From Candidatus Polarisedimenticolaceae bacterium (GTDB taxonomy: Bacteria > Acidobacteriota > Polarisedimenticolia > Polarisedimenticolales > DASRJG01), in contig DASUCV010000020.1 of assembly GCA_036275915.1 (NCBI GenBank), forward strand, positions 124,001 to 188,000: a stretch of DNA of 64,000 nucleotides. Direction: 5' to 3'. The position numbers and the translations under genes are program-made. Positions 30,279 to 42,420 of the stretch are shown piece by piece; position 1 is the stretch's first letter; each line of letters opens with the position of its first letter. The notes beneath the pieces were generated by a model that made no database searches, was not told the origin of the DNA, and worked only from the letters and a program-made list of their open reading frames with translations.

Positions 30279-30716
30279 TCAGCTCTGCTTGCCAAGACTG
30301 CCCAGGCCGCCGCGCACGAAGTTGAGCGCTTCGCCCAGCAGTGAGTGCTCGTTCTGAGGCACGCTTCCGTTCGGGGTGAGCTTGTCGATCACCGCCGGAA
30401 GCGCCGTCGCGAGGAACGACGCGGCCATGGAGGGCGTGATCCCGAGGTTCCCTGCGATCTCCTCGATCTTTCCCTGGCCGATCGCCGACTGCACCTGACC
30501 GGGCGTCGCGGGAGGATTCGGTCCGGTGCTGATCCAGCCGTTGACCAAGTTGCCGAGACCTTGCTGCTCGAACTTTTGCGCGATCCCGGAGATCCCGCCG
30601 GAGGACTGGAGCAATCCCATCACGGCGCCGACCGCGTTGGAGTTCAGGAGGCCGGGGCTCGTGCCGGTGGACGCGTTCTGTTGCAGGTGCGCGGTCAATT
30701 CATCCAGTAGTCCCAT
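30279..30716 (-). CDS. YidB-like DUF937 family protein
   Basis: A 145-aa protein with the DUF937 signature: MGLLDEL at the start, a glycine-rich helical core (GLGNLVNGWISTGPN, PGQVQSAIG), the helix GITPSMAASFLATALPAVIDKLTPNG, and a GGLG-containing tail. The strong ribosome site GGAGGAGG precedes the ATG. The family is widespread and lacks an assigned biochemical function. No signal peptide is present, so it is probably cytoplasmic. It lies between the helix-hairpin-helix gene and the Cys-rich pair on the same strand. Confidence 0.9.
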   Translation of the reverse strand: MGLLDELTAHLQQNASTGTSPGLLNSNAVGAVMGLLQSSGGISGIAQKFEQQGLGNLVNGWISTGPNPPATPGQVQSAIGQGKIEEIAGNLGITPSMAASFLATALPAVIDKLTPNGSVPQNEHSLLGEALNFVRGGLGSLGKQS

Positions 30717-39441: not shown

Positions 39442-39515
39442 TGCCCCCACCTGGACTCGAACCAGGGACCAGCGGATTATGAGTCCGCCGCTCTGACCGA
39501 CTGAGCTATGGGGGC
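39442..39515 (-). tRNA. tRNA with CAT anticodon (Met or Ile2)
   Basis: A complete 74-nt cloverleaf. The acceptor arms GCCCCCA and TGGGGGC pair perfectly. The D-arm contains AGCTCAGTCGGTCAGAGC, the anticodon stem GCGGA/TCCGC encloses the loop CTCATAA (anticodon CAT), and the T-arm contains GGTTCGAGTCC. The discriminator is A, and the 3' CCA is not encoded. It is not an initiator-type tRNA by its fully paired first base pair. Whether it is elongator Met or lysidine-modified Ile2 cannot be settled from the sequence alone. Confidence 0.95.
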
Positions 39516-39598: not shown

Positions 39599-40051
39599 TC
39601 AATGCCCCGGCGACTTGTCCAGGAGCTCTGCCAGCAACAGCTCGACCGCCCGGACCCGCTCCGGGCTGCCCGTGCGCATGAAGACGGCGAGGCTTCTCAG
39701 GATGTTGATCTCGCGAGGCGAGTAGGCCTCGCGACCGTCGGCGCGTGTCACTTCGGCGCTGCCGCGGATCAGTTGAAGGAGACAGTCGCCGCGCGCGCTC
39801 ACCGGGCACACGGGATGACGATGCGGTTCGTGGCTGTCGGGCGTGTGGAGATCGTCGAGGTCGGCATGCAGCGCTTCGAGGACGCGCATGACCGTCGTGA
39901 AGCTCGGGTGCACACGCGACGTTTCGATCCGCGAGAGATACGCGGGCGCGAGGCCGGCGAGACGCGCGGTCGTTCCCTGCGAGAGTCCTCGGCCCGCGCG
40001 GATCGCGGCGAGGCGGGGTCCAATTTCAAACGTTGAAGAATTCCGTGTCAT
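39599..40051 (-). CDS. XRE-family transcriptional regulator
   Basis: A 150-aa protein. The N-terminal Cro/C1-type helix-turn-helix (about 10-65) contains LAAIRAGRGLSQGTTARLAGLAPAYLSRIE and the following SFTTVMRVLEALHADLDDL. The C-terminal part has a His/Cys-containing segment (SHEPHRHPVCPVSARGDC) that could sense metal or redox state, then a helical tail (RAVELLLAELLDKSPGH). It is divergent from the Hsp20-AAA operon with a 138-bp shared upstream region, so control of that operon is the natural hypothesis. There is no clear ribosome site before the ATG. Confidence 0.85.
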   Translation of the reverse strand: MTRNSSTFEIGPRLAAIRAGRGLSQGTTARLAGLAPAYLSRIETSRVHPSFTTVMRVLEALHADLDDLHTPDSHEPHRHPVCPVSARGDCLLQLIRGSAEVTRADGREAYSPREINILRSLAVFMRTGSPERVRAVELLLAELLDKSPGH

Positions 40052-40189
40052 CAGAAGCCGACCCGGTGACTTTCAGGGCATGGCTTTGTCCGTCGAAACC
40101 TGTCGGCGGAATTCTAGGGCGCCTACCTTGCCTCCGCAGTAGGTCGAGTCTCCGAATTACAGACCAGCAGTATCCGAAGGAGGGTGTCG

Positions 40190-40714
40190 ATGACCGAGGT
40201 CATGCAAGCGCTCAACGAAGTGAAGGACCTCTACACGAAGTTCCTCGGGCAACCGGCGCCCGAGATCGGACCGGGCTGGTATGCCCCGTTCCCGCCCGGC
40301 GCGGACCCGATGAGGTACGCCATTGCGGAGGTCGAGGAGCTGAAGAAGCTCCTTCTCCACGCCCGCACGCCGCAGATTCCGATCGCCTGGATTCCGCGCG
40401 CCGACGTCTTCGCGGGGCGCGAGGCGGTCGTGATCCGCCTCGAGATCCCCGGCGTGAAGCGGGACCAGCTCAAGGTGCTCGTCGCCGAAGGGGAATGCAT
40501 CGTTCGCGGCGAGAGACCGACTCCGGCCGAGGACAAGAAGCTCCAGCCGATCGGCCTCGAGTTCCCGTTCGGAACGTTCGAGAGGCGCTTCGCGCTGCCG
40601 ATGCACGCCGCGCCGGAGAAACTGACCGCCAAGTACGCCGACGGCATCCTCGAGGTGACGGTCCCGATCGTGGAGCTGCCCGCACCGAAAGAGATGAAGG
40701 TCGAGATCGCATGA
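40190..40714 (+). CDS. Small heat-shock protein (Hsp20/alpha-crystallin)
   Basis: A 174-aa chaperone. A long N-terminal region (residues 1-65, with EVKDLYTKFLGQ) precedes an alpha-crystallin domain: WIPRADVFAGREAVVIRLEIPGVKRDQLKV, then GERP, then FPFGTFERRFALPM, and the family G-x-L motif in YADGILEVTVP. The C-terminal I-x-I-type anchor is weak (VEIA). GGAGG lies six to seven bases before the ATG at 40190; the GTG at 40184 is rejected because it overlaps that site. It is first in an operon with a 55-aa protein (ATGA overlap), a Pro-rich repeat protein and a ClpB-D2-like AAA+ protein. Hsp20 proteins hold unfolded clients for ClpB-type disaggregases. Confidence 0.95.
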   Translation: MTEVMQALNEVKDLYTKFLGQPAPEIGPGWYAPFPPGADPMRYAIAEVEELKKLLLHARTPQIPIAWIPRADVFAGREAVVIRLEIPGVKRDQLKVLVAEGECIVRGERPTPAEDKKLQPIGLEFPFGTFERRFALPMHAAPEKLTAKYADGILEVTVPIVELPAPKEMKVEIA

Positions 40715-40878
40715 ACACGAAGCCCGCTCTCAACAAGCCGACGGAAGCCCGCGAGGCAGCTTCCGACGATCTCACGATCGCCTATCAGGTCCACACGCTC
40801 GTCCAGATGTTGACGATGCGTCTGGCCGCGCCGCAGCACACGATGCTGCCGGCGCCGTTTCCGCCGTTCGTCCACTGA
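40711..40878 (+). CDS. 55-aa protein coupled to Hsp20
   Basis: A 55-residue protein whose ATG overlaps the Hsp20 stop (ATGA). The N-terminal half is polar (MNTKPALNKPTEAREAASDD), followed by a helix-prone, moderately hydrophobic stretch (YQVHTLVQMLTMRLAAPQ) and a Pro/Phe-rich end (PAPFPPFVH). That end echoes the Phe/Pro composition of the next gene. No family is recognised. Its tight coupling suggests a subunit or adaptor made at a fixed ratio to Hsp20. Confidence 0.65.
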   Translation: MNTKPALNKPTEAREAASDDLTIAYQVHTLVQMLTMRLAAPQHTMLPAPFPPFVH

Positions 40879-40936
40879 GGCCGAGATCGCACGCGTCCAT
40901 GGAGGACGCGCGCTCGAAGCGACAAGGAGCCGCACC

Positions 40937-41293
40937 ATGTTCTGGAACGATCCGAATCTGTACAGCGTGGCCTTCAAGGACGTCCCCAACATTCCCCTGC
41001 CCTTCTACGGGACGCTCCCCCGGTACTTCACCCCGTTCACACCGTTCGACGTGAAGCCGAACCTCTTCACGCCGCAGATTCCGCCGACGATGTTCCCCCC
41101 GCAGATCCCGCAGTATTTCACCCCGCAGATCCCGCAGTACTTCACGCCGCCGGTCACGCCGTCGTACTTCACGCCGCAGATTCATCCGCTCCTGCACAAC
41201 CCGATTCATCGGCTCATGGATCCGATGACCCCACAGCTCCCGTTCAACTACACGCTGCCCTACTTCCAGGGGTATCGGCCCTTCGGGCTGTAG
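40937..41293 (+). CDS. Pro/Phe/Tyr-rich short-repeat protein
   Basis: A 118-aa protein of very low complexity. From residue ~45 to 80 it repeats units of 8-10 residues: LFTPQIPP, MFPPQIPQ, YFTPQIPQ, YFTPPVTPS and YFTPQIHP. The flanks are also aromatic and Pro-rich (VPNIPLPFYGTLPRYFTPF; FNYTLPYFQGYRPFGL). Charged residues are nearly absent after position 40. There is no signal peptide. AAGGAG lies eight bases before the ATG. Such composition suits an extended or polyproline-like, self-associating protein, possibly a client or scaffold of the Hsp20-AAA pair. No family is recognised. Confidence 0.72.
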   Translation: MFWNDPNLYSVAFKDVPNIPLPFYGTLPRYFTPFTPFDVKPNLFTPQIPPTMFPPQIPQYFTPQIPQYFTPPVTPSYFTPQIHPLLHNPIHRLMDPMTPQLPFNYTLPYFQGYRPFGL

Positions 41294-41331
41294 CGGGCCT
41301 GACCTCTCCCGCCGGGGAGATCGAGGCGACG

Positions 41332-42363
41332 ATGTTCTCGGACGTCCTGAAAGCGGCCTTGGAATCGGAGATCGCGGGACAGCCCGCAGCTATCGCGAGC
41401 GCCATCCGCGGAACGACGCGCGTGATGAGCGGGCTGACGCCGCGCGAGCGGAGCTGGTGCGCCTACATGTTCATGGGGCCCAGCGGCACGGGGAAGACGC
41501 AGCTCGTCCGCACGCTCGCGCGGACGCTCCACGGCGAAGGGCGTGGCCTCTTCATCGCCGATTGCGCGCAGTTCATGCACGGCGACCCGTGGTGGGCCTT
41601 CTCCGCGCAGATCCTTCCGATGTTCTCCCAGCCCCGATTCGAAGACGGGGGGGCTCTTCTCGAAGCGCCGCCCTTCTCCGTGGTGCTCATCGAGTACCTC
41701 GAACGGGGACGCAAGGAGATCGGCAAGGCCCTGACGGCGGCCCTGGACTCGGGACGTCTCACCCTCCCCGGCGGAAGACTCGGCAGCTTGAGAGGCTGCC
41801 TGGTGTTCATCACGACGAGCCTGTGCTCGCGCGAGATCCTCGAGGAGAGCCCGAAGATCGGATTCGCCGGAGCGACGGGTCCCGGCCTGGAGGACGACCG
41901 CGTGCTCCAGATGTGCCGGGCGGAGGCTTCGGAGCATTTCGGGGACGATCTCGTCAACCGGCTCGACGGGCTCGTCGTCTTCCACAAGCTGCATGACGAG
42001 CACCTGCGCGAGATCTTCGACCGGCGGTTCGAGAGGATGAACCGCTGGATCTTGAGCCGCGGGTTCCGCTGCGAGCTTGAACCCGCCGCCCGGGCGTTCC
42101 TCCTCGAGCGCTCGAAAGGCGACGCCAAGTTGGGTGCGCGCGAGCTCGTGCGCGTCTTCCGCCGGCACCTCGAGTTTCCCGTGGCCGATCTGATGATCAG
42201 CCGCCGCATCCCCTCTGGCGGGATCGTGCGGATCGACCACGTGGAGAGCGAGGAGCACCTCCACTTCACGGTGATGCCCTCTCCCGCCGTCGCAACCACC
42301 GCATCGCCGCGAACACACGCCCCCCGCGAGGTGGGGATCGAGTGGGGGACCCTCGCGCCCTAG
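41332..42363 (+). CDS. ClpB-D2-like AAA+ protein with degenerate Walker B
   Basis: A 343-aa single-ring AAA+ protein aligned by eye with the second ATPase domain of ClpA/ClpB. Walker A is GPSGTGKT (49-56). The Walker B segment SVVLIEYLERG (116-126) replaces the family's SVVLLDEIEKA, so the metal-binding Asp is Glu and the catalytic Glu is Tyr. Sensor-1-like VFITTS, the arginine-finger block DLVNRLDGLVVFHKL and sensor-2 LGARELVRV are retained. ClpB's N domain, D1 and middle domain are absent. It could be a slow or non-hydrolysing ATPase or a nucleotide-dependent scaffold. It ends the Hsp20 operon, 27 bases before a strong terminator. Confidence 0.85.
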   Translation: MFSDVLKAALESEIAGQPAAIASAIRGTTRVMSGLTPRERSWCAYMFMGPSGTGKTQLVRTLARTLHGEGRGLFIADCAQFMHGDPWWAFSAQILPMFSQPRFEDGGALLEAPPFSVVLIEYLERGRKEIGKALTAALDSGRLTLPGGRLGSLRGCLVFITTSLCSREILEESPKIGFAGATGPGLEDDRVLQMCRAEASEHFGDDLVNRLDGLVVFHKLHDEHLREIFDRRFERMNRWILSRGFRCELEPAARAFLLERSKGDAKLGARELVRVFRRHLEFPVADLMISRRIPSGGIVRIDHVESEEHLHFTVMPSPAVATTASPRTHAPREVGIEWGTLAP

Positions 42364-42390
42364 ACGCGAACCGAGTCGCACGCCCATGCG

Positions 42391-42420
42391 AAGGGGAGCC
42401 TGCGGGCTCCCCTTCTTTTT
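42391..42420 (+). terminator. Intrinsic terminator of the Hsp20-AAA operon
   Basis: AAGGGGAGCC (42391-42400) pairs perfectly with GGCTCCCCTT (42405-42414) around a TGCG loop and is followed by CTTTTT. This is the clearest rho-independent terminator in the window. Confidence 0.92.

Follow-up and report, generated by a model that had tools for sequence, protein, structure and literature searches.

In yeast, the sequestrase Hsp42 is a small heat-shock protein (sHSP) with a disordered, prion-like domain that is essential for sequestrase function (PMC6813348). In bacteria, sHSPs act alongside an Hsp100-type protein in the IbpA/IbpB-ClpB-DnaK system (PMC8155344), and protective aggregates with chaperones have been described (PMC10534466). 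The present study concerns a four-gene operon in a 64,000-nucleotide stretch of DNA from a Candidatus Polarisedimenticolaceae bacterium (the whole stretch being referred to as the window). The operon encodes an Hsp20, a small protein (P2), a low-complexity protein (LCP) and an AAA protein resembling the second AAA domain (D2) of ClpB. Its makeup suggests a dedicated, still undescribed system that builds or holds protein assemblies, and no description of it was found in the open-access literature searched.

The operon resembles Hsp42 in combining an sHSP with a low-complexity segment, and reversible sequestration is proposed here as well. It differs in that the low-complexity part is a separate, hypervariable chain and in that the operon also encodes a degenerate AAA ring and P2, a helix protein. 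No prion-like domain lies within the sHSP chain, the extension of the operon's Hsp20 being modelled as two helices. Because the low-complexity part acts in trans, the operon is not a member of the Hsp42 type, but it may work similarly. With IbpA/IbpB-ClpB-DnaK the operon shares the pairing of an sHSP with an Hsp100-type protein; unlike it, the operon has no Hsp70, its AAA protein is degenerate and it carries a specific partner, the LCP. The operon can be regarded as a variant of the sHSP/Hsp100 chaperone system, and a case for something more is possible.

A conserved gene order around a variable low-complexity protein

The four genes are co-directional and occupy positions 40190-42363 of the window, on the forward strand. 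The Hsp20 gene (40190-40714) begins with an ATG preceded by AAGGAGGG. At its N-terminus, ahead of the alpha-crystallin domain (PF00011, E 4.7e-15; 56 bits against a cut-off of 20.8), whose fold matches sHSPs, the product carries a conserved extension of some 70 amino acids. The ATG of the P2 gene (40711-40878) overlaps the Hsp20 stop codon; P2 is 55 amino acids long and consists of a conserved stretch, AYQVHTLVQ, and a proline/aromatic tail. Next come the LCP gene (40937-41293), specifying a low-charge repeat protein of 118 residues rich in Pro, Phe and Tyr, and the AAA gene (41332-42363, 343 codons). AAGGAG-type ribosome sites stand ahead of the Hsp20 and LCP genes. All of these genes lie at, or very near, the positions assigned to them in a preliminary description of this DNA.

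Six operons, spread over five of the class's 41 genomes, have the order Hsp20-P2-LCP-AAA, which bears out the earlier view of a single operon. Relatives of the window operon occur in G009, G021, G007 and G039, the latter with two copies, one of them divided between two contigs; the AAA gene is last in each. The operons were found through single-domain relatives of the AAA protein (33-49% identity), and profiles were then built from these same operons. The survey covered the window's own phylum, inferred to be Acidobacteriota, and plasmid and viral collections. The P2 profile (A2) matched six loci, in exactly the five operon genomes among the 41 of the class. Among 396 phylum genomes, the profile of the Hsp20 extension (A5) gave best E-values of 6e-35 or lower only in these five, followed by a few weak matches, and the AAA profile reached about 1e-154 or better in the same five only, the next best value being 1e-77. 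A contig scan with a single-protein query returned one ordinary-looking ClpB/Hsp20 neighbourhood. A viral origin was rejected, no relative having been found in IMG/VR, as was a plasmid origin, since general Hsp20 and ClpB matches alone appeared among the plasmid matches listed.

The four proteins are conserved to very different degrees. Across the 15 pairs of operons, AAA proteins are 34-49% identical (alignment z 32.2-49.9) and Hsp20 proteins 36-50% (z 19.7-34.4). The six Hsp20 C-termini read VEI, VEV, IEI, VDI, VQV and VEI (alignment A1), fitting the I/V-x-I/V pattern that we take to be an sHSP motif. The Hsp20 model (predicted local distance difference test score, 74.8) places two helices, at residues 2-19 and 40-58, on the N-terminal side of the alpha-crystallin domain. 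P2 alignments are weaker (z 2.6-6.8), with one conserved stretch in which A...H...Q is invariant. LCP alignments are near random (z -1.1 to 6.8), and the LCPs of L040 and L041 score about the same as shuffled sequence, with few or no exceptions among their pairs. Neither P2 nor the LCP has a characterized family, as the preliminary description had stated: the P2 and LCP proteins submitted to Pfam, NCBIfam, PHROGs and PDB searches returned no family and only a few insignificant matches to domains of unknown function (DUFs). A direct search with the LCP in 59 other genomes likewise gave no clear relative (best E, 0.03). One P2 gene, that of G009 (L038:4388-4657), has acquired a 10-residue tandem repeat of its own, VAPPQVGYTH, so that P2 tails also gain repeats.

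What persists in the LCP is composition and place. Among 44 window genes predicted with a codon-position heuristic, the LCP has the lowest charged fraction (K+R+D+E, 0.076; mean 0.237) and the highest fractions of aromatic residues (0.20) and proline (0.23). The six LCPs contain 1.0-9.1% charged and 10.5-24.6% aromatic residues; Pro, Gln or Asn account for a large part of the rest. The epithet "nearly charge-free" used previously is therefore slightly strong for the window protein (7.6%) but describes two relatives well (1.0% and 1.7%). The sequence filling the slot changes almost wholly, as illustrated by FTPQIPQY, FNNTPWNG, WNWQQPQ and PLQA. Tandem repeats occur in four of the six LCP genes, and no two of these share a unit; in the window gene, a 24-nt repeat specifying eight FTPQIPQY-like residues spans 41064-41181 (Tandem Repeats Finder scores 88 and 95). 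A motif of the type aromatic-x-DP-x-[LM]-Y lies at the start of four LCPs.

The preliminary description would have been undermined by relatives that keep Hsp20 and AAA while the repeat gene is absent or frameshifted. None was seen: the slot holds an open, low-charge, low-complexity reading frame in all six operons, each with an AGGA/GAGG-type ribosome site 3-17 nt upstream. The idea that the LCP is a chance reading frame was rejected on these grounds. A self-associating, disordered scaffold would be expected to show just this, a fixed place and composition while the sequence shifts; unrelated proteins in the slot would also agree with it. An LCP-like neighbour was also sought at 90 further Hsp20 loci of the class, covering 335 kb, out of 185 Hsp20 matches counted. 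None was convincing, and two matches to the filter look antisense. The control is good yet incomplete, as the filter recovers six of eight known cases and misses L021 and L039.

The AAA protein and its lost motor residues

The profile of the window AAA protein matches the D2 domains of ClpC and ClpB in the PDB, with Skd3 matched as well, and Foldseek gives template-modelling scores of 0.66-0.74 (query-normalized) to ClpB/ClpC. The protein thus shares with ClpB/ClpC D2, its best PDB matches, the fold, the Walker A motif and the D2-small domain (PF07724, 5.5e-14; ClpB_D2-small, 8.1e-12). Its 343 residues comprise one AAA domain that matches the second half of ClpB only, rather than two AAA domains with N-terminal and middle domains, and identity to canonical D2 is about 30%. 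Like Skd3 (human CLPB), it has one AAA domain of the D2 type; unlike Skd3, it has no ankyrin repeats.

Walker A, GPxGTGK[TS], is kept in all six operon proteins (GPSGTGKT in the window copy). Walker B is not. The window protein reads LIEY at this site (E121-Y122), and across the six proteins the aspartate is replaced by Glu (five) or Gln (one), while the residues at the place of the catalytic glutamate are Tyr, Arg, Gln, Asn, His and Arg. The comparison included 40 of 46 aligned rows, six having been dropped as duplicates or for gaps; none of the six operon rows keeps the glutamate, whereas all 34 Clp-type control rows have the Walker B DE pair. The GYVG pore loop is likewise missing in all six operon proteins. 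In L041 and L021, two further positions are changed, which we take to be the arginine finger and the sensor-2 arginine, with the roles these names imply.

Changes equivalent to two of these losses, E455Q and Y430A, abolish disaggregation by Skd3 (PMC7343390), and ClpB cannot do without its second pore loop (PMC6593972). The operon protein lacks both residues identified in Skd3. Unlike ClpB/ClpC, it is a single-domain protein without catalytic glutamate and GYVG. Because these two features are missing, it does not qualify as a ClpB- or Skd3-type disaggregase, and the earlier suggestion that Hsp20 and AAA form a standard disaggregation pair is not supported. The protein is probably an ATP-binding, non-hydrolysing ring; ATP binding, ring formation and the role of the ring are inferred.

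In a phylogenetic tree, the six operon proteins form one clade (support 100/100) on a long stem of 1.48 changes per column. The tree program warns of a long branch for the L041 protein (row L022). The clade is sister (96/81) to eight single-D2 proteins of similar length from other genomes of the phylum (G050, G076, G088, G159, G209, G216, G222 and G333). These keep the glutamate (FEELEKA) and have GYVG or GYIG in all eight cases. Since the sister clade retains both features, the most likely history is that a working single ring lost its motor on entering the operon. No Hsp20 or LCP was noticed among the neighbours read for the sister proteins. Their loci (L042, L199, L200, L201, L202, L209-L213) have TrkA-like and thiE-like flanks in three genomes and hisS-like genes nearby in others (names assigned by eye).

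Possible roles of the operon

We tentatively favour, with somewhat less than even confidence, a dedicated, sHSP-based protein-assembly module in which the LCP is a self-associating scaffold and the AAA protein a nucleotide-dependent ring. The LCP, and to a lesser extent the P2 tail, would be low-charge sequences rich in aromatic residues, Pro, Gln or Asn, selected for composition over sequence. The LCP would self-associate into a condensate or reversible aggregate, and the extended Hsp20 would bind it, keeping the assembly soluble or reversible and perhaps co-assembling misfolded client proteins. P2 may serve as a small helical adaptor. The AAA ring would bind ATP, very probably without hydrolysing it or threading substrates, and would serve as a scaffold, cap or switch and not as a disaggregase. 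A role in assembly or condensation, already proposed for the repeat protein in the preliminary description, fits its composition. A more speculative and, in our judgement, improbable version makes the condensate an energy switch: the ATP-loaded, motor-dead ring and Hsp20 would keep the LCP dispersed, and a fall in ATP during dormancy or starvation would let it condense and store proteins, evolution preserving only the composition of the scaffold.

Several points weigh against the assembly module. Sequence does not establish homology for the LCPs of L040 and L041, and the proteins in this position may therefore be unrelated. Low complexity alone is no proof of condensation, and the LCPs of L038 and L039, which have no tandem repeats, might be ordered interaction partners instead; self-association of the LCP and its contact with Hsp20 are themselves proposals. 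Loss of the catalytic glutamate is no strict proof that ATPase activity is absent. The operon is patchy, being present in five of 41 class genomes, mostly fragmented assemblies. A sigma-70 scan found no promoter and no heat-shock promoter has been shown, heat-shock elements not having been searched for systematically.

Other explanations share part of the evidence. If the LCP were a structural or storage polymer, such as an intracellular granule, filament or coat, the other three genes would encode its assembly chaperones. Its repeats, low charge and own ribosome-binding site would suit such a product, and the hairpin that follows its gene (see below) could help the first three genes to be expressed at a high level. 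Conserved sequence, which a defined polymer lattice should need, is however missing from the LCPs. Gas-vesicle clusters combine GvpA with Hsp20-like and AAA accessories. GvpA was matched in none of seven genomes, but no control genome was positive either. On balance we consider a polymer unlikely. A defence or conflict module, in which the LCP is a rapidly evolving partner for some factor from a phage or a competitor and its divergence the outcome of an arms race, would account for the patchy occurrence and the very fast LCP turnover. PADLOC, however, recognizes no defence system in the five genes (the operon and the XRE gene), reporting only a partial match of the AAA protein to DolB (4.2e-9) and generic helix-turn-helix (HTH) matches; the lack of an IMG/VR relative also speaks against this idea, as does the compositional constraint on LCP divergence, which low-complexity regions can show without any arms race. 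We regard it as highly improbable.

The remaining two explanations turn on the AAA protein. In a dedicated disaggregase pair, Hsp20 would hold the LCP, or aggregates bound to it, and the AAA ring would dissolve them by threading powered by ATP, in the manner of ClpB and Skd3. The protein's nearest fold and profile matches, the intact glutamate and pore loop of the sister clade and the precedent of single-ring Skd3, itself a disaggregase (PMC7343390), make this conceivable; with glutamate and GYVG gone from all six operon proteins, and two more motor positions altered in two of them, we find it very unlikely. Alternatively, the AAA protein might join ordinary ClpB/ClpC hexamers and re-target or inhibit them at LCP/Hsp20 assemblies, as an adaptor or a dominant-negative subunit. 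This would agree with its D2 fold and similarity to ClpC/ClpB, with the long, two-ring-sized Clp ATPases that the carriers also encode and with the effect of ATPase-deficient ClpB subunits on mixed hexamers (PMC6593972). A single AAA domain about 30% identical to canonical D2 argues against it, and mixed assembly is hypothetical; we consider it doubtful.

Should the assembly module prove correct, it would be a small natural test case for three questions: are there bacterial genes for scaffolds dedicated to protein condensates, in what way are sHSPs matched to particular low-complexity partners, and what is left for an Hsp100-type ring to do after losing its motor? The six natural LCP versions, with FTPQIPQY, FNNTPWNG, WNWQQPQ and PLQA among their units, accompany the same chaperones and form a ready set for testing composition rules.

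Flanking signals, regulator and sister arrangement

A hairpin is predicted between the LCP and AAA genes in all six operons, with z between -1.7 and -3.2 in five; the window copy (41297-41327, forward strand) is only a possible hairpin (z -0.9). These structures suggest, without proving it, that less AAA is made than Hsp20, P2 and LCP. The operon is closed by an intrinsic terminator (42390-42420, forward strand) with an 11-bp stem at 42390-42415 followed by T5; its fold has z -4.3, and none of 200 shuffles was equally stable. This strong terminator was part of the boundaries drawn in the preliminary description. The other side of those boundaries fared less well, as an XRE gene stands next to the operon in no more than two cases out of six and the tRNA-Met(CAT) gene (39442-39515, reverse strand), which lies beyond the XRE gene to the left, looks incidental in the window.

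The XRE-type HTH regulator (39599-40051, reverse strand, 150 amino acids; HTH_31, 8.6e-12) is divergent from the window operon, has a C-terminal CPxSxRGxCLLxLIR motif and is 48% identical to the one divergent from the G009 operon. The family is present in eight of the 41 class genomes, of which G000 and G009 are the only ones where it flanks the operon. Being scattered and placed beside other genes elsewhere, it was rejected as a defining part of the operon. No inverted repeat that could serve as its operator was found in the window. The corresponding XRE-Hsp20 gap of G009 (L038:5200-5336) contains two palindromes, TGACA-N4-TGTCA (found by eye) and GTTGACA-N4-TGTCAAC, which are possible XRE operators. 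Relatives of the regulator at L190, L191 and L192, in three genomes, are divergent from a secreted-looking type of protein (QLVGFT...C...CTxSE).

Weak matches to the Hsp20 extension led to a two-gene sister arrangement in G213 (L058:2247-3364) and G010 (L059:3-1097), without an adjoining AAA gene. Here an Hsp20 with a similar N-terminal extension lies beside a 161-residue protein made up of a helix-like N-terminal stretch, low-complexity sequence of the GLSHTSP type and a WNDPYLAARVSQTFPY-like end. A third weak match, in G320, has no neighbour of the 161-residue type. Comparison with hhalign did not show this protein to be a homologue of P2 or the LCP, the one match being six residues, WNDP(N/Y)L, shared with the LCP; the sister link therefore consists solely of the N-terminus of the Hsp20 and the pairing of the two genes. 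Elsewhere in the window, the gene with the second-lowest charge (30279-30716, reverse strand) encodes a protein of 145 amino acids that presumably belongs to the DUF937/YidB type.

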